Assembly: GCF_011492945.1 (NCBI RefSeq) | Contig: NZ_CP045119.1 | Coordinates: forward strand, 2,604,001-2,668,000 | Direction of reading: 5' to 3' | DNA: 64,000 bases | Source of the DNA: Rubrobacter tropicus | Lineage (GTDB): Bacteria > Actinomycetota > Rubrobacteria > Rubrobacterales > Rubrobacteraceae | In this document: piece by piece, positions 2,258 to 53,385 of the stretch | How positions within the stretch are numbered: the first letter of the stretch is position 1 | Layout: each line of letters begins with the position of its first letter | Position numbers and translations under genes: made by a program | Notes under the pieces: generated by a model | What the model was told of the DNA's origin: nothing | What the model saw: only the letters and a program-made list of their open reading frames with translations | Database searches by the model: none

Positions 2258-2707
2258 ATGTCCTCCACGAATAACGGAAAATTCTCCGAGCTGTTCGGGG
2301 TCATAGAAGACTATGCCCAGAGGGAGTACCACTACCAGGACAAGGCGCTCCAGGTCATAGCCGGGTCATACGTCTTCATGTTCGAGAGCGAGGACATGCC
2401 GGACGCCAGGCCCGTGCTCGACAACATCCTCGAACAGTACGACTACGTCTTCACGACCATCGAGCGCGGCAACCTGGATCCCCTCATCGTGGACGCCATC
2501 GTAAAGGTGGCCCTCTACCGCGAGGAGCACATGGAATGGGGCATCAACCGCCTCGGCAGGATCCTCGAAGCCCTCTTCCGTCGCTCCCGCACCGACGAGA
2601 CCTACGAGGACTACGTGACGGACACCAACCTCGTCATCCGGGGCCTCGAAAGGATGGTAACGGGCTCGGTTCTGGAAGAGTTCGTGGAGGCGAGCAACGG
2701 GGGATAG
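2258..2707 (+). CDS. hypothetical protein, all-alpha, 149 aa
   Basis: Not a family I recognise. The start at 2258 is chosen because AAAGAAAGGGGGAGA lies directly upstream; the open frame extends further 5' without a ribosome site. The acidic soluble protein (MSSTNNGKFSELFGVIEDYA...) has no signal peptide or membrane segment. It looks mostly helical, with amphipathic stretches such as VVDAIVKVALYREEHMEWG-like runs near residues 80-100. It lies between a membrane protein gene on the opposite strand and the 3' end of uvrA, so its neighbours say little about its job. Confidence 0.7.
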   Translation: MSSTNNGKFSELFGVIEDYAQREYHYQDKALQVIAGSYVFMFESEDMPDARPVLDNILEQYDYVFTTIERGNLDPLIVDAIVKVALYREEHMEWGINRLGRILEALFRRSRTDETYEDYVTDTNLVIRGLERMVTGSVLEEFVEASNGG

Positions 2708-2710
2708 AGC

Positions 2711-2877
2711 TTTCGGCTGTCAGCCCTCGGCTATCAGCTTTTTGGTCCTGTTGATTGGCCTTTCTCGCCGGGTCTGCGGGCCGTTCTCCCGCAACGCAGC
2801 CCGTAGCCTGGCCGCGTTGCCACACAAAACGGTCGGCCACCCGCCAAGAAGCTGAGGGCTGAAAGCTGGAGGCTGAT
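2711..2877. repeat. inverted pair of heptameric repeats
   Basis: Four heptads of type NNTCRGC (TTTCGGC, TGTCAGC, CCTCGGC, TATCAGC) at 2711-2738 face four heptads of the complementary type RGCTGRN (AGCTGAG, GGCTGAA, AGCTGGA, GGCTGAT) at 2850-2877. The two arms could pair and enclose about 110 bases. The element fills the gap between two convergent genes and matches arrays at other intergenic sites in the window. Confidence 0.75.
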
Positions 2878-2878
2878 A

Positions 2879-5731
2879 CTAAGACGCCGCCATCACTTCC
2901 GGCATGAGGTCGCGGAGGAAGCGGCCCGTGTGCGAGGCTTCGGCGTGCGCTATCTCCTCGGGGGTGCCCGTGGCGACTATCTCGCCGCCCCCGTCGCCGC
3001 CCTCGGGGCCGAGGTCTATCACGTGGTCGGCGGAGCGGATCACGTCGAGGTTGTGCTCGATGACGATGACGGTGTTGCCGGCGTCGACGAGCCTGTGCAG
3101 TATGTGCAGCAGCTTCTCCACGTCCGCGAAGTGCAGGCCCGTCGTCGGCTCGTCGAGGATGTAGACGGTCTTTCCGGTCGCCCTCTTCCCGAGCTCACTG
3201 GCGAGCTTGACCCTCTGCGCCTCACCGCCCGAGAGCGTCGTCGCGGGCTGGCCGAGCCGGACGTAGCCGAGGCCCACGTCCCTCAAGGTCTCCATGCGGC
3301 GGGCGATGGCCGGAACCGGCGCGAAGAAGCCGCAGGCCTCTTCGACGGTCATGTCCAGAACGTCCGAGATGGACTTGCCCTTGTAGGTGGCGCGGAGGGT
3401 CTCGGTGTTGTAGCGGCGGCCCTTGCAGACCTCGCAAGGGACGTAGACGTCCGGGAGGAAGTGCATCTCTATCCGGATCTGGCCGTCCCCCTTGCACGCC
3501 TCGCACCGCCCGCCCTTCACGTTGAAGGAGAAGCGCCCCGGCTTGTAGCCCCGGATCTTGGCCTCCGCCGTCGAGGCGAAGAGCTGGCGGATGTGGTCGA
3601 AGACCTTGGTGTAGGTGGCCGGGTTGGAGCGCGGGGTCCTTCCTATCGGGCTCTGGTCTATGTCTATGACCTTGTCGACGTTCTCGATCCCCTTGAGGCC
3701 GGCGTGCCTCCCCGGGCGGTGCTTGCCGCGGCTCACGGCGTTGGCGAGCGCCTTGTACAGGATCTCGTTGACGAGCGTGCTCTTCCCGGAACCCGAGACC
3801 CCCGTTATGCACGTCAACACCGACAGCGGAAACTCCACGTCGACGCTTTTCAGGTTGTGCTCGGTCGCGCCGATCAGGCCTATCGTCCCGGTCGGCTCGC
3901 GCCGCTCCTCGGGGGGCTCTATGCGCCGGCGGCCGGAGAGGAAGTCGCCCGTTATCGAGCGCTCCTCCGCTTCGACGTCCCCGACGGAGCCGGTGGCGAT
4001 GATCTCGCCGCCGTGGACCCCGGCACCCGGGCCGACGTCCACGACGTAATCGGCGGCCCGGATCGTGTCCTCGTCGTGCTCGACGACTATGAGCGTGTTG
4101 CCAAGGTCCCTGAGCTTCTCGAGCGTGGTCAGGAGCCTGCGGTTGTCCCGCTGGTGCAGCCCGATCGAAGGCTCGTCTAGCACGTAGAGCACGCCGACGA
4201 GCCCGCTGCCTACCTGAGAGGCCAGCCTGATCCTCTGCGCCTCCCCACCCGAAAGCGTCCCAGCCGAGCGGGCGAGGGTCAGGTAGCCCAAGCCCACGTC
4301 GACCAGGAAGCCGAGCCTCTCCCGGATCTCCTTGACGACCCGCTCCCCGATCAGCCACTCCCTGGTCGTGAAATCGACCTCCTGGAAGAAGTCCTGCGCT
4401 TTCCAGACGGAGAGCTCGGTGAACTCGGAGATGCTCTTCTCCCCCACCGTGACGGCGAGCGCCTCCGGACGGAGCCTCGCGCCCTTGCACTTGGGGCAGG
4501 GGACGTGGCTCATGAACTCCTCGATCTTCTCCCGCCGATACTCGGAGTCCGTCTCGACGTATCGCCGCTGCAGGTTGCTCACGACGCCGTCGAACTGGGT
4601 CATGTACTGGCGCCTGCGGTTGTAGCGGTTCCTGTAGGAGACGTAGATGCGCTCCCCGTCCGTCCCGTAAAGGATGAGGTTCTTGTGCTCCTCCGGGAGG
4701 TCCCGCCACGCCACGTCCAGATCTATGTCGTACTTCTCGGAGAGCGCCCCGAGCACGCTCCTGTGGTACTCCGTCTGCGAGTTGGCCCACGGCACGACCG
4801 CGCCCTCGTTGACGCTCAGATCCTCGTTCGGCACCACGAGCGCCGGGTCTATCTCAAGCCTGCTCCCGAGCCCGTCGCACCTGTCGCAGGCCCCGTGCGG
4901 GCTGTTGAACGAGAACGTCCGCGGCTGTATCTCCGCTATGGACGCCCCGCAGTTCGTGCAGGTGAACGACTCCGAGAAGAGCATCGACTCGCCGGCCCCG
5001 CCGCCGTCCTTCTCGACCGTCTCTATCTGGACCAGTCCGTCGGCCAGTTTCAGCGCGGTCTCGATCGAGTCGGTCAGGCGGCGCTCCATGCCGTCCCGGA
5101 TCACGAGCCGGTCGACCACCACCTCGATGTCGTGCTTGTAGTTCTTGTCGAGCCCGAGGTCAACCGGCAACTCGTGGGTCTCCCCGTCGACGCGGACCCT
5201 CGCGAAGCCCTGCTCGGCGAAGTCCTTGAACATCTTGGAATGCTCGCCCTTGCGCCCGCGCACGACGGGCGCGAGCACCATAAAGCGCGTCTTCTCCGGC
5301 AACGTCAGCACCTTCTCGACCATCTGCTGCGGGGTCGACGAGGCGACCGGGTAGCCGCAGACGTGGCAGTGCGGGCGTCCGGCGCGGGCGTAGAGGAGGC
5401 GCAGGTAGTCGTAGATCTCGGTGACCGTAGCAACCGTCGAACGCGGGTTGTTGGAGGTAGTCTTCTGGTCGATGGAAACGGCCGGCGACAGCCCGTCTAT
5501 GTGGTCGACGTCCGGCTTGTCCATCTGCCCGAGGAACTGGCGGGCGTAGGCCGAGAGGCTCTCGACGTAGCGGCGCTGCCCCTCGGCGTAGATGGTGTCG
5601 AAGGCAAGCGACGACTTGCCGCTCCCGGAGAGGCCCGTGACGACGACCATCACGTCGCGGGGCAGGGAGACGGTAACGTCCTTCAGGTTATGCTCGCGCG
5701 CTCCCCGCACGACGATCTGATTATCGGCGAT
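2879..5731 (-). CDS. uvrA: UvrABC excinuclease subunit A, probable ATC start
   Basis: DNA damage-recognition ATPase of nucleotide excision repair; it loads UvrB on lesions. Two ABC modules are visible: a first Walker A (GLSGSGKSS, Lys about 39), zinc-binding CxxC pairs (CHVCGYP; CTNCGAS with [14 protein letters not shown]), signature [13 protein letters not shown] and [12 protein letters not shown]. The second has GVSGSGKST, the CEACKGDG...CEVCKGRR zinc module, [13 protein letters not shown] and [12 protein letters not shown]. Length is 950 aa from 5731, normal for the family. The usual N-terminus ([16 protein letters not shown]) is restored only by initiating at an ATC at 5731, which has GAAGGGGTGAT five bases upstream. 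The first conventional codon, a GTG at 5710, lies about 26 bases from that site and has no SD of its own. Confidence 0.95.
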
Positions 5732-5767
5732 GGGCCATCACCCCTTCTCTAAAGAACGCTACCGGCA

Positions 5768-5795
5768 AGTATACGGCCCCCTCTAGGGAGGCCAA
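5768..5795 (-). promoter_or_regulatory. candidate uvrA promoter
   Basis: On the minus strand TTGGCC (5795-5790) and TATACT (5773-5768) are separated by 16 bases. This would start RNA about 30 bases before the proposed ATC start. No clear LexA-type palindrome was seen nearby. Confidence 0.45.
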
Positions 5796-5845
5796 AGAAC
5801 CAGATTACTCTCCGCGAAATTTTAGCACCAGAAAGCTCGCCAGCT

Positions 5846-6004
5846 AGTCAGCATTTCAGCCTGTCAGCTTCCTGGTCTCGCTGACCGACAGGTCTCGACT
5901 ACGCCACCAGGCGCCGTCAACAACCACAGAAGCTGACGAGCTGAAAGCGAGGGCCGCAAGGCCCTATGCGTGCCGAGAGCGGAGGCGAAGCCGCAGCGCG
6001 CTGA
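5846..6004. repeat. heptad-type repeats plus 27-bp shared module in the uvrA-regulator gap
   Basis: The 398-base gap between uvrA and the next gene has no convincing ORF. It holds TCAGC-type units at 5846-5868, facing GCTGA-type units around 5932-5947, and a hairpin GGGCCGCAAGGCCC near 5951. A 27-bp module at 5978-6004 begins AGCGGAGGCGAAGCCG and ends GCTGA. Nearly identical modules lie at 8045-8071 and 37829-37855. Confidence 0.65.
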
Positions 6005-6129
6005 CAAGCGTAGCCCGGAGGGCGAAGCGAGCGCGACGACCGAAGGGAGGAGCCCGCCGTTTGCCAAAGTTCCTCGCGGGCTTCACAATGATACGGGCCG
6101 GTTACAGCGTGTTGCGAACGGAGACGGCC

Positions 6130-7819
6130 GTGATCCTTAAAGACTTCTCCCGGGTGCTCTTGGAAGAATTGGACGCCGACTGCCCGCTGCCCGGCGACCC
6201 CTCCCGCCCCGTCGCCGGCCTCGCCGTGGACGAACCTCTGAAGGGTTGGATCGGCAGGGACGAGGCGGTCTTCACGGCGAGGGAGGCCCTGGACGAGGAC
6301 TTTTTGGAGAACGTCGCCTCCTTCGGTTCCCCCGTCGTGGTCTGGCGCTCGGACGCCGCGGTCGCGTCCGCCGCAACGGAGAAGATGTCGGCCCTCGGCC
6401 TCGCGCTTCTCGTGCTCCCCCCGACGTGCCGCTGCGGCGGTTGCAGGTGACGCTCTCGGGGGCAACGACCTGCTCCTGCTCTCCCACAGCGCGGGGAGGA
6501 CGCTGCTCGAGGGCGCCGGGGGCGAGACCTCCTTGGCCGGGACCGTCGCGCGCGTCGCGGGGCTACTGGGCCGCTCCGTGGTGGTCGAGGACCCGGTGGG
6601 GCGTCTGATCTCCGGCTCACCCGAAGCCCGCGGGGAGAACAGCCTGTGGGGTTTGCTCGAGGATCTGTCGCTGCGGGCGTCCAGGGCGTCGGGCGTAGAC
6701 GAGACCCGCCGCGAGCGCAGGGACCGCTACGCGAGGCTGCCCGACGGTTACCTCTCCGTCCCCGTCGAACGCTGGCGCGTCGAGGACCGCGAGTTTTTCT
6801 GGACCCCGATCGGCACCGGCGCCCCCGCCGGATACCTCTGGGTCGACCTCGAAGGCGAGACCCTGCGCCCCGAAGACGTGGTCCACCTGTACTGGGCCAG
6901 GCGCGTCCTCGAATCCGAGCTCGCCAAAGACCGCGTCCGCCTCGAAACCGAGCTCGGCGTCCGTGGGGACTTCGTCGACGACCTGGTAAACGGCCACTAC
7001 GGGTCGGTCGACTTGCTCCTGCAACGCGCCGGCTACCTCGGGGCCGATCTCGCCAACGGGGCGCTCGTCCTGATCGTGGACATCGACGACTTCGCCCGCT
7101 ACCTGGAACGCCGCAAACCAAAGGAACCGGCCATCCAGGAGCTGAAGCGCCGTCTGGCCGAGGCCGTGAGGATGCAGACCCGCCAGCTCTTCTCCAACTT
7201 CCTCCTCGGCCCTCGCTCGGACAACGTAATCGTCTTCCTGGGCTCCTCCGAGGACACCCCGCCGGAAGACCTGCCCGAGAAGGCGCAGCTTTTGGCAAAG
7301 GGCGTTCAGCGTTACGTAAAAGGCCTCCTCCCCGACCTGACGATCTCCGTCGGCATCGGGCGCAACAAGAGGAACCCGGCGCTCCTTCCCGACGCCTACT
7401 CGGAGGCCGAGGTGGCCCTGGAGATCGGTCACCGCATCCACGGCCCATCCTCCGTCTCCACGTTCGAAGGCACCGGCACCTACAAGCTCCTCTTCCGCGT
7501 CTTCCAGGAGAACCCGGAGGAACTAATAGCCTTCTACGAGGAGACCCTGGAGCCCGTCGTCCGCTACGACTCCCGCTACAGCACGGAGCTCGTCCAGACC
7601 CTCGTAACCTACCTCGGCAACGACGCCTCCACCGTCAGAACCGCCTCCGACCTCTACGCCCACCGCCACACCATCCGCTACCGCCTCGACCGCGTGAGCG
7701 AGCTGACCGGCCTCGACGTCGACAAGAGCGAAGACCGCGAACGTCTCACCCTCGGCATAAAAGCCATGCAACTCCTCGGCCGCGTCCCCGAACGCCCGAC
7801 CAGCTTCGCTGATCGGTAG
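6130..7819 (+). pseudogene. PucR/CdaR-type transcriptional regulator, interrupted by two one-base gaps
   Basis: Transcriptional activator type with an N-terminal sensor-like domain, a central GGDEF-like CdaR domain (about residues 250-400) and a C-terminal PucR helix-turn-helix (HRHTIRYRLDRVSELTGLD). The frame starting at GTG 6130 (CGGAGA just upstream) reads to LLVLPP. It then continues as DVPLRRLQVTLSG in another frame and as GNDLLLLSHSAG in the third, which runs intact to 7819. The breaks sit at a C run (6417-6422) and a G run (6458-6462). Adding one base to each restores a normal 563-aa protein. Apart from these two sites there is no decay, so an assembly error is as likely as a true mutation. 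It lies upstream of amt and could regulate nitrogen or purine genes. Confidence 0.8.
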
Positions 7820-7837
7820 CCCGCCGCCCTTCGGGCA

Positions 7838-8071
7838 GCTTTCAGCCCGCTCCGCCCTGTCGGGCTCCGCTCTCAGCGCGCTTCGGCCCGCTTCGCAGTC
7901 TTAGCTCTCAGCCAGTCAGCTTCCCGCCGCGCAGGCCACGACCGGGCCGCGCCCCGCGCGATGGTTCCTCCGACGCGTGGCGCAACAGTACCTGACAACT
8001 TGCTGATAGCTGATGGCTGAAAGGCGCGAAGCGCCGGGCTGACAAGCGGAGGCGAAGCCGGAGCGCGCTGA
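7838..8071. repeat. facing heptad repeats with 27-bp module, upstream of amt
   Basis: This fills most of the 392-base gap between the regulator and amt. The left arm has TTTCAGC, CTCTCAGC, TCTTAGC and AGTCAGC units (7841-7921). The right arm has TGCTGAT, AGCTGAT and GGCTGAA near 8001-8023, followed by the 27-bp module at 8045-8071. No ORF there has coding character. Confidence 0.65.
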
Positions 8072-8211
8072 TGCCCGCCCCCTTGGACATTCGCCTCAAC
8101 AAACAAGTCCCGCGGGGTGGGCATCTTTGTCCAGACGGCCAAAGATCCTCCCGGGGGCGACACATAGACTAGGTTCCGAGAGAATATACTCCCGTTTCCT
8201 AAGGAGGGACT

Positions 8212-9636
8212 TTGCGGCGGTTAACCATTTTCATGCTCACGACGATGATGCTCGTCCTGGCGTTGCCGGCCCTGGCTTTCGCGCAGGACGCGCCCTCGAC
8301 GGCGGACCTATCGCTCGCCATGGACACCATGTGGGTAGTTATAGCGGCCGTCCTCGTCCTGTTCATGCAGGCGGGGTTCGCGATGCTCGAGGTCGGGTTC
8401 TCGAGCATGAAGAACGTCGGCAGCGTGGTGGCCAAGATCCTGGTGAACCTCGCGATAGCGGCCCTGCTCTTCTGGGCGGTCGGCTTCGCAATCACGTTCG
8501 GCACCGGCAACGCCATCTTCGGGACCCAGGGCTGGTTCCTGGCGGTGCCGGCGGGCCAGGTAAACGACGTCTACGCGGGGCTTTCGTGGACACAAGTTCC
8601 GCTCTCGGCCAAGTTCCTGTTCCAGGTCGCCTTCTGCGCCGTCTCGCTGGCGATCGTGTGGGGCACGATGCTGGAGCGGACCAAGTTCGCCGTCTACGTC
8701 GTCTTCGCCGTGGTCTTCGCGGGGCTGCTCTACCCGCTGGTGGGGCATTGGATCTGGGGCGGCGGCTGGCTTACCGAACTCGGTATGCAGGACTTCGCCG
8801 GCTCCACGGTCGTCCACCTCTCGGGCGCCATGGCCGCGCTCGCCGGGACGCTGCTTCTCGGCCCCAGGCTCGGCAAGTACGACGACGAGGGCCGTCCGGT
8901 GAACATACCCGGCCACAACATGCCGCTCGCGGTTCTGGGCGTCCTGATCCTGTGGGTCGGCTGGTACGGCTTCAACCCGGGCTCCACGATGGCGGCGAGC
9001 ACCCAGGTCGCCGACATCGCCCTGACCACCACCCTCGCCGCCGCCGCCGGCGTGCTCGGCGCCATGAGCATGAGCTACATGTATCGGAGGAACATCGACG
9101 TCGGCATGGGCGGCAACGGCGCCATCGCGGCACTCGTCGCCATCACCGCCCCCTGCGCCTTCGTCGCGCCCTGGGCCTCCATCGTGATCGGCTTCCTGGC
9201 GGGCGTCATCATGTACGCGACGCTGGTCTTCGTGGACAGGATCGGCGTCGACGACCCGCTCGGCGCCATCGCGGCGCACGGCATGGGCGGCATCTGGGGC
9301 ACGCTTTCCTGCGGCCTCTTCACGACCCCGGCGCTCGCGGCGGTCGGCGAGCCCGGCCTCTTCTACGGCGGCGGCTTCTACCAACTCGGCATCCAGGCCC
9401 TCGGCATCGTGGCCTGCGGCGGCTTCGTCTTTATAGCCTCGCTCGCGGTCTTCGCGGCCCTAAAGGCAACCATCGGCATCAGGGTCAAGCCAGACCAGGA
9501 GCTCGACGGCCTCGACATCCACGAGCACGGGGTCTTCGGCTACCCCGACCTCGTCGCCACGGACTACCAGAACGGCAACGGTCACACCAGGAGAGCCCCC
9601 GAGCCGGTGAGCGACACCGCGGAAGGCACCGCGTAA
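8212..9636 (+). CDS. amt: ammonium transporter (Amt/Mep/Rh family)
   Basis: Trimeric ammonium channel in the cytoplasmic membrane. The 474-aa product starts at TTG 8212 behind TAAGGAGGGAC. A signal peptide (LVLALPALAFAQDA) precedes a periplasmic N-terminus and about 11 hydrophobic segments. Typical Amt stretches are visible: QAGFAMLEVGF, DFAGSTVVHLSGAMAALAG, VLGVLILWVGWYGFNPGS and DDPLGAIAAHGMGGIWGTL with the pore histidine. The C-terminal tail contains the regulatory GLDIHEHG motif. No glnK/PII gene follows; the gene is ended by a strong hairpin, so it appears monocistronic. The preceding PucR-type gene is a plausible regulator. Confidence 0.97.
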   Translation: MRRLTIFMLTTMMLVLALPALAFAQDAPSTADLSLAMDTMWVVIAAVLVLFMQAGFAMLEVGFSSMKNVGSVVAKILVNLAIAALLFWAVGFAITFGTGNAIFGTQGWFLAVPAGQVNDVYAGLSWTQVPLSAKFLFQVAFCAVSLAIVWGTMLERTKFAVYVVFAVVFAGLLYPLVGHWIWGGGWLTELGMQDFAGSTVVHLSGAMAALAGTLLLGPRLGKYDDEGRPVNIPGHNMPLAVLGVLILWVGWYGFNPGSTMAASTQVADIALTTTLAAAAGVLGAMSMSYMYRRNIDVGMGGNGAIAALVAITAPCAFVAPWASIVIGFLAGVIMYATLVFVDRIGVDDPLGAIAAHGMGGIWGTLSCGLFTTPALAAVGEPGLFYGGGFYQLGIQALGIVACGGFVFIASLAVFAALKATIGIRVKPDQELDGLDIHEHGVFGYPDLVATDYQNGNGHTRRAPEPVSDTAEGTA

Positions 9637-9649
9637 AGACAGGGTTTCG

Positions 9650-9682
9650 GCACCGGCCGGGAATTCCCGGCCGGTGCTTTTT
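9650..9682 (+). terminator. rho-independent terminator after amt
   Basis: A perfect 14-bp palindrome arm GCACCGGCCGGGAA with its complement (9650-9677) is followed directly by five T residues (9678-9682), 14 bases after the amt stop codon. Confidence 0.95.
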
Positions 9683-9756
9683 CGCGCCCGCCCTTCCGCG
9701 GGTAGAGTTCTGTATGCTGAAACGAAACACGAACCCGAGTAGGCACGGAGGGCAGT

Positions 9757-10038
9757 TTGGAGGCACCCATAACCCAGGCCACGGCCCACAACAACACGAT
9801 AGTCGCGGTCTTCGAAGACCGCGTCGAGGTCAAGAGCGGCTGGCAGTCGCAGAACGTGGAGGCTTTGGACCTGAAGCAGGTCGCGACGGTCGCGATCCGG
9901 GGCCTCGTCAACGCAACGCTGACGCTCGAAACGAACACCGGCCGCGTCCTCCGACTCAACCGCATGGCCCTCCCCGACGCCCGCAAGGTCAAGAAGGCAA
10001 TCGAACGGCAGAAGCAGAGGGCGGGACTGTACGATTGA
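9757..10038 (+). CDS. small PH-like domain protein
   Basis: This 93-aa soluble protein starts at TTG 9757 behind CGGAGGGC. The sequence (AVFEDRVEVKSGW..., LTLETNTGRVLRLNRM, then a helical tail DARKVKKAIERQKQ) looks like a compact bacterial PH-like fold, with alternating strands capped by a C-terminal helix. This is a fold impression and not a firm family call. No partner gene is adjacent: amt is terminated before it and a repeat region follows. Confidence 0.65.
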   Translation: MEAPITQATAHNNTIVAVFEDRVEVKSGWQSQNVEALDLKQVATVAIRGLVNATLTLETNTGRVLRLNRMALPDARKVKKAIERQKQRAGLYD

Positions 10039-10048
10039 AGCTAATGGC

Positions 10049-10069
10049 TGTCGGCCTTCGGCTTTCAGC
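10049..10069. repeat. three heptad repeats (TGTCGGC, CTTCGGC, TTTCAGC)
   Basis: A short left-type heptad array directly after the 93-aa gene, of the same family as the arrays at 2711, 26091 and 37789. Confidence 0.6.
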
Positions 10070-10154
10070 CAGAAGCGCCGGGCGACGCGGTAGCGACCGG
10101 AGCCAGGCCTGTCGGTTCTCCGTGGAGGAGCCGAACGACAAGCGCCACCTCTAG

Positions 10155-10310
10155 AGCGGTTTGCGGAGGTATCGAGCCTACCGCGAGCAGGCATCCGGGT
10201 TCTCGGGTTCTCAGGGGTGGAAGGTCGGGGCCCGCCCGCGGCCTCGGGGCGCACCCCTAAGAGCCTCGGCGCCCACGGGGCGCCGAGGGTCGGTCCTTCC
10301 GCAAACCGCT
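10155..10310. repeat. MITE-like element with terminal inverted repeats
   Basis: This 156-bp non-coding element starts AGCGGTTTGCGGAGG and ends with the inverse of AGCGGTTTGCGGAAG (10296-10310). It contains a 46-bp core (10213-10258) that recurs at 53137-53182 with about three differences, and an internal hairpin built on CTCGGCGCC. It accounts for a large part of the 463-base gap before the TetR gene and carries no transposase. Confidence 0.75.
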
Positions 10311-10427
10311 GTAGAACCCCGGATCCAACCAAACCGGCGCCGGCCAGCCTCGGACGGCGCGCATCACCGGTCGCGACCCCTCTCGCCGCGCAGATTTCTT
10401 ACTCGGACCGTCTCTCCGATGTCGCCC

Positions 10428-10451
10428 TTACATCGTACACTTACGATGTAA
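10428..10451. promoter_or_regulatory. palindromic operator upstream of TetR gene
   Basis: A perfect 10-bp inverted repeat, TTACATCGTA and TACGATGTAA, with a 4-base spacer. It lies about 50 bases before the TetR start. Size and symmetry are typical of TetR-dimer operators, so autoregulation is likely. Confidence 0.75.
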
Positions 10452-10501
10452 TCATGCCGTGAATCCTGTAAGCTGTCGGCAAAGGCGTGGGAGGGCTACT
10501 G

Positions 10502-11128
10502 TTGGTCGAGGCGAAGAGGCGGCCGTTGAGCCGTCGGCGGGTGTTGGAGGCGGCGGTAAGGTTCGTGGACCGGGAGGGGCTCGGGGCCCTCAGCATGAGG
10601 AAGCTCGGGGCGGATCTTGGCGTTGAGGCGATGTCCCTCTACAACCACGTCCCGAACAAGGACGCGTTGCTCGACGGGATGGTCGAGGTATTGCTCGGGG
10701 AGTTGGAGGTCCCTTCCGAGGGTGGGGATTGGGAGGAGCGGGTTCGGGAGGCGTACAGGGGGTTTCGGAGGCTGGCGCGGGAGCATCCCAACGTCTTTCC
10801 GCTGCTGGTCGTCCGTCCGGCGAACACCATGGACGGGGTCTGGCTCGTGGAGGAGTTTCTGAAGACGTTGCGGGAGGCCGGCTTCGACGCGGTTACTGCC
10901 TTGTACGCTTTCAGGACGCTCTCCGGGTACGCGATGGGTTACGCGATGGCCGAGATCCGGGGCTTCGCCATGGAACCGGGCGGCGACCGCGCGGGCGTCC
11001 GGGCCCTTCCGGCGGATGAGTTTCCGCGCATCTCGGAGCTCGAAGGACGGCTGGGCGAGGTCGACCGGGACGCGGAGTTCGAGTTCGGGCTGGGCCTCAT
11101 CCTGGGTGGGTTGAGGGAGAAACTCTGA
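10502..11128 (+). CDS. TetR-family transcriptional regulator
   Basis: Ligand-responsive repressor of 208 aa. The N-terminal helix-turn-helix is clear (VLEAAVRFVDREGLGALSMRKLGADLGVEAMSLYNHVPNKDALL, read across residues about 15-60). The C-terminal part resembles the tetracycline-repressor-like ligand domain. TTG 10502 is preferred because GGAGGG lies 7 bases upstream; a GTG five codons earlier has no such site. A perfect palindrome sits about 50 bases upstream. The gene for a CPBP membrane protein starts 31 bases after its stop, so the two probably form one unit with the membrane protein as a regulated target. Confidence 0.9.
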   Translation: MVEAKRRPLSRRRVLEAAVRFVDREGLGALSMRKLGADLGVEAMSLYNHVPNKDALLDGMVEVLLGELEVPSEGGDWEERVREAYRGFRRLAREHPNVFPLLVVRPANTMDGVWLVEEFLKTLREAGFDAVTALYAFRTLSGYAMGYAMAEIRGFAMEPGGDRAGVRALPADEFPRISELEGRLGEVDRDAEFEFGLGLILGGLREKL

Positions 11129-26058: not shown

Positions 26059-26088
26059 GTGTACGAAGGGCCACGGCCCTTCGTACAC
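26059..26088 (+). terminator. terminator hairpin after tRNA-Leu
   Basis: A perfect 13-bp stem GTGTACGAAGGGC with its complement, loop CACG (26072-26075), followed by a T-containing stretch that is itself a heptad repeat array. Confidence 0.8.
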
Positions 26089-26090
26089 GC

Positions 26091-26118
26091 TTTCAGCTTT
26101 TAGCTATCAGCCGTCAGC
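26091..26118. repeat. four perfect-register heptad repeats
   Basis: TTTCAGC, TTTTAGC, TATCAGC, CGTCAGC in direct tandem, immediately after the tRNA terminator. Confidence 0.8.
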
Positions 26119-27299: not shown

Positions 27300-27325
27300 C
27301 CGTTGCAGTCCGCCATCCGCACGCA

Positions 27326-27360
27326 AGAAGGGCCGGCGTCTCGTAGACGCCGGCCCTTCT
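27326..27360. terminator. hairpin between convergent ppa and SRPBCC genes
   Basis: A perfect 15-bp stem AGAAGGGCCGGCGTC with its complement and a 5-base loop TCGTA, 26 bases after the ppa stop. Few T residues follow, but it is symmetrical and could serve both strands. Confidence 0.7.
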
Positions 27361-27371
27361 CTACAACTGAC

Positions 27372-27399
27372 TGCTGAAAGCTAATCGCTGACAGCTAGT
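27372..27399. repeat. four heptad repeats (right-facing type)
   Basis: TGCTGAA, AGCTAAT, CGCTGAC, AGCTAGT in tandem, placed between the hairpin after ppa and the stop codon of the next minus-strand gene. Confidence 0.75.
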
Positions 27400-37598: not shown

Positions 37599-37690
37599 AG
37601 CGGCTTGCGTAGGGAATGAACCTCGATGTTCGTAAGGTTTTGAGGCATCGAGGTTCTGACAGCGGCTTGCGGAAGGATCGATCCTCCGCC
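37599..37690. repeat. two partial copies of the AGCGGYTTGC element end
   Basis: AGCGGCTTGCGTAGGGA at 37599 and AGCGGCTTGCGGAAGGA at 37661 resemble the terminal repeat of the elements at 10155 and 53072. Both point the same way, so these look like decayed or solo ends. Confidence 0.5.
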
Positions 37691-37788
37691 GGCGGGGCTA
37701 CAGGTATCAGGCTTCGGGCATCAACAAGGGATTGCCGGACGTGCGGCCTCCCGGTAGGGGATCAATACTCACGAACGCCGCTATGAGG

Positions 37789-37855
37789 CATCAGCTTTCG
37801 GCCAAGAACAATAGAGCTGATGGCTGATAGCGGAGGCGAAGCCGCAGCGGGCTGA
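37789..37855. repeat. facing heptads plus 27-bp module
   Basis: Left-type heptads CATCAGC, TTTCGGC at 37789-37802 face AGCTGAT, GGCTGAT at 37815-37828, which run straight into the 27-bp module (37829-37855) shared with 5978 and 8045. Part of the 360-base gap between two convergent genes, which also holds a terminator hairpin; no ORF is supported there. Confidence 0.7.
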
Positions 37856-37866
37856 CGGCTGACCGC

Positions 37867-37901
37867 GCGGATTGCGGTGGCTCAAGGCCACCGCAATCCG
37901 C
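37867..37901. terminator. hairpin between convergent enolase-superfamily and GH127 genes
   Basis: A perfect 15-bp stem GCGGATTGCGGTGGC with its complement, loop TCAAG, followed by TTT on the plus strand. It lies 17 bases after the GH127 stop on the minus strand. Confidence 0.75.
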
Positions 37902-37918
37902 TTTAGGTCACTACGGGA

Positions 37919-52960: not shown

Positions 52961-53360
52961 GGCGGCTTGCAGAACGACTGGTCCTCGATGCCGGCGAGGT
53001 TCTGAGGTTTTGAGGGGCGGGAAGCCGGCGCCCGACCCCGCGAAGCACGCACGAAAACCCGAAAGCCTCACAGCGGTTTGCAGAATCATCGAGCCCGTTG
53101 GGAATAGGCTTACGGGTTTTTGGCTTTCGGGTTCCGAGGGGTGGAGGGTCGGGGCCTGCCCGCGGCCTCGTGGCGCACCCCTCAAGACCTCTATGCCTCA
53201 AAACCTAAAAACCTTACCAACACCAGGGTTCAGTCCTTACGCAACCCGCTAGCAGAACCTATCCACCGGCCCGGTCTTTCTGCGAATCGCTATAGGTTGT
53301 CAGGTTCTTAGGTTCTTAGGGGCGCGGCGCGGGCCGGGTTTCGGAGTCGCCCCCCTCAAT
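52961..53360. repeat. cluster of MITE-like repeats, best copy 53072-53250
   Basis: The 540-base gap between the binding-protein gene and the aldo/keto reductase gene holds no credible ORF. The clearest copy runs 53072-53250: it begins AGCGGTTTGCAGAAT, ends with the inverse of AGCGGGTTGCGTAAG, and has a 46-bp core at 53137-53182 nearly identical to 10213-10258. A partial copy starts GCGGCTTGCAGAACGA near 52961, and another fragment ends near 53360. Simple motifs such as GGTTTTGAGG and GGTTCTTAGG recur between them. Confidence 0.7.
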
Positions 53361-53385
53361 ACCTCAACAACTCAATGCCTTCTCG

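Follow-up and report, generated by a model that had tools for sequence, protein, structure and literature searches.

Several gaps between genes in the 64,000-nucleotide stretch analyzed here (the window, G000:C1:2604001-2668000, where G000 is the source genome) contain short tandem units, often as two arrays that face each other across a spacer. This raises the question of whether these arrays form a true repeat family and, if so, whether they serve the genes beside them or are simply tolerated there.

Anatomy and abundance of the arrays

The preliminary description gave the units as NNTCAGC and RGCTGAN and placed them at ten positions. We found units of one family at all ten, each of them intergenic by our own codon-model gene predictions. 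The formula, however, required correction: the unit is GCTGANN (TCAGCNN on the opposite strand), with five fixed and two free letters and a period of 7. Clean or nearly clean period-7 tandems are present at 2711/2850, 8001, 26091, 27372, and 37815. The arrays at 5846, 10049, and 37789 are period-8, degenerate, and a two-unit arm, respectively, and 7841 is part of a longer element rich in hairpins. The layout of a full element is TAGCNN(TCAGCNN)n - spacer - (GCTGANN)nGCTA, with typically 3 to 4 units per array in the source genome (Table 1); some arrays are single arms with no facing partner.

The dispersed arrays, which follow hundreds of genes on the chromosome, are real and far above chance. 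The window contains 7 arrays, against a mean of 0.18 and a maximum of 1 over 60 first-order Markov random windows, and we counted 60 arrays in 464 kb of the source genome versus 1 in the reversed sequence. The genome-wide count for which the preliminary description called gave 443 forward and 443 reverse matches to a 3-unit pattern, versus 1 + 1 for the control. The source genome (4.58 Mb) consists of a 4.38-Mb chromosome and a 205-kb contig, for which we use the name plasmid. We sampled it twice: a first sample of 864 kb (824 kb chromosomal), made up of 20-kb stretches and the window, held 127 arrays, and an independent second sample of 220 kb of chromosome, taken with the remainder of the plasmid, held 49. 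No arrays were found on the 205-kb plasmid, where the chromosomal density predicts about 30 to 45. A bias in strand or replichore was dropped as a candidate feature; the samples show both strands everywhere.

Table 1. Arrays and related features. Positions without an L handle are window coordinates.
Feature	Position	Strand	Remarks
Left arm of first element	2708..2738	-	Four units, TCGGC/TCAGC cores; begins straight after TAG stop of gene 2258-2707
Spacer of first element	2739..2850	.	112 nt, unique; no likeness to other spacers
Right arm of first element	2851..2878	+	Four units; ends at TAG stop of uvrA (2879-5710, minus strand)
Period-8 TCAGC array	5848..5868	-	Three units; variant TCAGCATTTCAGCCTGTCAGC
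Period-8 GCTGA array	5932..5944	+	Faces 5848-5868
Left side of longer element	7838..7920	-	TCAGC cores interspersed with GC hairpins
Element core	7926..8001	.	Aligned part 7928-7982; other copies in source genome and relative G006
GCTGA arm of 7838-8020 element	8002..8020	+	Three units
Degenerate TCGGC/TCAGC array	10051..10069	-	Three units; TCGGCCTTCGGCTTTCAGC
AGG-dialect composite element	10157..10312	.	AGCGGTTTGC outer ends; arms vary among copies
Single arm	26093..26118	-	Four units; after hairpin that follows tRNA-Leu
Single arm	27366..27391	+	Four units, two exact; after GC hairpin
AGG-dialect array	37635..37655	+	Shares gap with GCTGA arrays
Second AGG-dialect array	37695..37720	+	Gap shared with GCTGA arrays and 37635..37655
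Left arm	37791..37802	-	Two units (TCAGC, TCGGC)
Right arm	37816..37862	+	Pieces 37816-37834 and 37851-37862 around small GGCGAAGCC hairpin
AGG-dialect facing arrays	52996..53380	.	Includes copy of composite element
Copies of AGG-dialect composite	Window 10157-10312, 53072-53275; L033, L177, L179, L181
Orthologous gaps with AGG-type facing arrays in relatives	Next to uvrA; L042:5457; L042:9348; L034:3658
Facing heptamer arrays with other cores	L448:10553-10739, L381:11637-11744, L390:8245-8338, L298:6744-7501, L155:7080-7203		GTCGA, TCAGT, CAGAA, GTGGT, GTCGT; unrelated contigs

Facing pairs have a fixed polarity, TCAGC-spacer-GCTGA, at 33:0 in the first sample and 14:1 in the second. Among 54 facing elements the arms are mostly of 3 to 4 units, and the gap between them is bimodal, either 10 to 19 nt or about 80 to 120 nt with a peak at 100 to 109. 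When the long spacers (~100 nt) were compared with one another, no common sequence was found, although two contain a hairpin or core module with further copies in the source genome. The inner flank of the arms shows a weak preference for T-rich sequence. Three short-loop elements (L050:16744-16786, L025:1478-1527, and L037:657-701) have similar T-rich loops (about TTTTTGTCTTTG), which may resemble a cold-shock-protein heptamer site. A pair of units has expanded at L039:11528-11584 into a minisatellite of TCAGCTCTCAGCCTG with period 15. The window element at 7841-8065 has a core of ~75 nt, ending in CACAGACGACT, that lies between TCAGC/GCTGA arms and GC hairpins. Further copies of this core lie at L037:5680-5900, L041:19751-19832, and L202:12157-12231; about ten were found in 824 kb, and relative G006 has it as well.

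Bacterial genomes have an excess of heptamer repeats, for which polymerase slippage is a proposed cause (quoted in PMC4692102). Replication slippage or quasi-palindrome template switching might then account for the arrays with no element or function involved, and some arrays elsewhere are indeed runs of identical units. However, adjacent units here avoid identity: neighboring free dinucleotides were the same in 2 of 77 cases in the first sample (9.7 expected; P = 0.0015) and in 1 of 23 in the second (3.4 expected; P = 0.1). Template switching meets the difficulty that the arms within an element are no more alike than the arms of different elements. We consider this origin highly improbable.

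Gene ends and the predicted stem

The preliminary description had proposed a test for bias toward gene 3' ends and had named random placement, including inside genes, as the result that would speak against it. Placement is not random: 122 of 127 arrays in the first sample and 47 of 49 in the second are intergenic. By orientation of the flanking genes, the first sample has 54 convergent, 62 tandem, and 2 divergent cases, where the intergenic bases available are 15, 74, and 26 kb, respectively; the second has 26, 20, and 1. The first array met on leaving a gene 3' end is of the TCAGC type at 66:16, then 28:8 in the second sample, with the opposite polarity in about one fifth of first arrays. Many arrays begin no more than 10 nt from the stop codon, often flush with it. 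In a search for a GTAG/CGTC tag, we observed that the arms often begin with TAGC and that the TAG there coincides with stop codons. Enrichment of TAG beside arrays had P = 1.4e-4 in the first sample but P = 0.58 in the second, and it is therefore not claimed.

As the preliminary description suggested, the facing arrays can form large stems: the predicted fold of 2705-2881 reaches -89 kcal/mol (z = -6.0). Its statement that arrays usually sit beside terminators held only in part. Strong GC hairpins (26060-26088, 27323-27360, and 37863-37903) do adjoin arrays, but no hairpin with a convincing T-tail accompanies the 2711/2850 pair, and many arrays start at the stop codon itself. A canonical intrinsic terminator was rejected for that pair, which has no T-tract, and a scan of 2600-10600 for a stem plus T-tract at the arms gave no convincing case. 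Rfam matched nothing in the studied sequence but tRNA. Arms of the same element paired no better than swapped arms (mean of -38.64 for true versus -38.68 kcal/mol for permuted pairs), and thus there is no sign of selection on the whole stem. The stem is nevertheless strong, by virtue of the fixed cores.

Our tentative preference is for a chromosome-only, lineage-expanded family of small repeats in intergenic DNA at gene 3' ends, with a bidirectional stem at transcript ends as their candidate function. Directly shown are the element anatomy, its polarity, the siting at gene 3' ends, the expansion in this lineage, and the exchange of word between species at shared sites. We suggest that transcripts leaving either neighbor gene would carry UCAGC blocks and then GCUGA blocks and would fold into a long stem in which 5-bp blocks alternate with 2x2 loops. 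Because every core would pair with every other, the stem could adopt several registers, with no match needed at the free letters. REP/BIME elements are thought to limit read-through and 3' exonuclease entry. By analogy, the likely use here would be a transcript-end structure working in both directions, one that may limit read-through into the opposing gene and also exonuclease entry. The repeats would first have spread as non-autonomous elements, with their arms turning over in place. Placement, TCAGC-first polarity, facing polarity, the strong stem, other-word arrays at orthologous gaps, and dispersal argue for such a stem, which we hold provisionally and at somewhat less than even odds. Against it are the missing T-tract at the main pair, the arm-swap result, the single arms, and the opposite polarity in about one fifth of cases. 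A further point against this still tentative function is L042:14391: it lies between tandem genes, and a true terminator at such a place would have a polar effect.

An entirely passive, mobile origin has almost the same likelihood, if somewhat doubtful: the arrays would be selfish, non-autonomous miniature elements that survive just past stop codons, and the RNA stem would be a by-product. The burst in this lineage, the empty sites in relatives, and the avoidance of genes and promoters are consistent with this. So is the AGG-dialect composite, a MITE-like element of ~155 to 200 bp with AGCGGTTTGC outer ends. Its six copies conserve the outer ends and core, whereas the AGG arrays between them vary in length; thus, it supports dispersal of whole elements together with fast change of the arms. 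The long spacers of the GCTGA elements are unique, however, and therefore most of these elements did not arise by copying of the entire unit. No autonomous partner flanked by AGCGGTTTGC ends was found in 824 kb. We also found no RAYT (Y1 transposase): PF01797 had no match in the source genome, while the same search was positive in two congeners and five control genomes. The empty plasmid and the presence of another word at common sites are unexpected under random insertion.

Sites and words in relatives

The preliminary description would have counted absence from close relatives against the family if there were no sign of mobility. The family is scarce there, with 4 to 30 GCTGANN pattern matches in each of eight congeners versus about 750 in the source genome, where it is dispersed. 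We compared orthologous gaps at 83 to 87% identity in the flanking DNA; the relatives' genomes are drafts, the AGG detector is crude, and several site comparisons were made by eye. Three relatives have facing AGG-type arrays at orthologous gaps, with similar gap sizes (Table 1). The word in G007 is GCTGANNN with period 8, and the period differs (7 or 8) between congeners; 7 is dominant in the GCTGA family. At L176:16264, the source genome has TCAGCNN, whereas a clean array of TCAGGNN is present in G004 and decayed arms in G005 and G006; the spacers of these three relatives look alike by eye (unscored). Sites were shared more often than by chance: of the gaps that hold an element in the source genome, 5 of 16 were shared, versus 2 of 66 of those without one (P = 0.0026). 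The excess was only moderate among non-divergent gaps of at least 60 nt (P = 0.03); some shared sites visible by eye fall under the automatic detector's threshold. Thus, layout seems more lasting than sequence, because relatives carry paired arrays with another word at some common sites.

Other orthologous sites are empty or nearly empty in relatives, whose divergence is too great to fix the edges to the base for a target-site duplication. For example, where the source genome has the L042:14391 element, two tandem genes in G006 are separated by 9 bp. Spacers could be aligned within the closest pair, G004 and G005, clearly at 2 of 5 sites (z of 10.6 and 6.7); no spacer homology between the source genome and relatives was found at any scored site.

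Species-specific words could also arise if the arrays are bound by a putative protein that recognizes DNA or RNA through 5 of every 7 bases, with a specificity that varies by species. This might be a nucleoid, uptake, or translation/stability factor, on which facing pairs would load symmetrically. The fixed core, free dinucleotide, and strict period and polarity would suit such a protein, as would the protein-binding role proposed for TAACTGA arrays (PMC4679880). However, we found no candidate protein, the word would have to change at hundreds of sites together, and the period is 7 or 8 among congeners. We regard this as unlikely.

Known repeats and arrays beyond the genus

The preliminary description saw no evident function, which still stands, but the anatomy has a precedent. 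Intergenic heptamer arrays occur in Xanthomonas (GGGANTN) and Nostoc (GGGGA(C/T)T), with five conserved positions per 7-nt unit, most often four units, and many inverted facing pairs. About 90% are intergenic, near the 3' end of the upstream gene, with few between divergent genes and none on plasmids (Rehm et al. 2015, PMC4692102). Nearly all of this anatomy is common to our arrays, including period, unit number, facing pairs, gene-end placement, and absence from the plasmid, which makes it the closest precedent. In contrast, GCTGANN copy number is several times higher, the spacers are mostly unique, and the word is exchanged between close relatives at common sites. The Xanthomonas and Nostoc arrays were attributed to G-quadruplexes (PMC4692102), and the shared architecture might suggest the same here. 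However, the GCTGA/TCAGC core has no G run, so a quadruplex is impossible with the same architecture nonetheless present; we give this explanation practically no credence. Lacking G-tracts, the GCTGANN family is an architecture variant outside the G-rich family.

TAACTGA direct repeats in Beggiatoaceae, Cyanobacteria, and Bacteroidetes (MacGregor 2015, PMC4679880) are likewise intergenic tandem heptamers with a patchy taxonomic spread. They occur as 2 to 6 copies immediately before start codons and are hardly ever paired in inverted orientation, whereas ours face each other downstream of stop codons. REP/REPIN/BIME elements are high-copy, intergenic, and mostly downstream of coding regions, as inverted pairs 20 to 100 bp apart that are plausibly transcribed as hairpins (Di Nocera et al. 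2013, PMC3733652). Our arrays resemble them in copy number, downstream sites, and inverted pairs but consist of tandem 7-nt units, where those elements have single tagged palindromes. MITEs are similar in being short and dispersed with inverted ends, but most GCTGA elements lack a common interior, and no transposase was found, nor any target duplication at the resolution that the diverged relatives allow; conserved ends plus interior occur only in the AGG composite. Slippage, fold-back copying, and REPIN mobility all fit poorly because units avoid identity, swapped arms pair equally well, and no Y1/RAYT was found. The best reading is that these are dispersed BIME-like repeats, tolerated or used as candidate bidirectional stems at transcript ends.

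Four exact consecutive GCTGANN units occur in at least 117 stretches in genomes of many phyla, including unrelated families of the source phylum and viral-labelled contigs. Among the matches listed (117 loci), 36 have the same facing direction and 4 the opposite. Unrelated contigs contain facing heptamer arrays with other cores (Table 1), and the facing architecture looks independent of the word. We claim no preference for GCTGA over other cores, because the loci were chosen by the GCTGA word. An AGTCG scan was rejected as a negative control because 13 of its 79 loci hold another facing heptamer dialect.

Observations of heptamer arrays have accumulated piecemeal over decades, with no agreed function. 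A broader and rather improbable proposal is that facing heptamer arrays are one widespread bacterial gene-end class, in which site and architecture would be inherited, the word would be a fast-changing species dialect, and both arms would be rewritten together to the lineage's current word. If true, this would unite many separately described heptamer families, and explanations by quadruplexes or specific words would be unneeded. The close species set studied here has the same architecture and several common sites with different words, so the comparison distinguishes the features that persist (placement, polarity, short period, and pairing) from those that do not (sequence, quadruplex ability, and spacer). 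It is the word unlike those of Xanthomonas and Nostoc that makes the case informative, and the species set is a testable system for the making and renewal of arms. The viral-labelled contigs L322, L323, and L331 have 9 to 14 exact four-unit GCTGANN matches per about 9 kb, a density exceeding that of the source genome; they are possibly mislabelled bacterial DNA.
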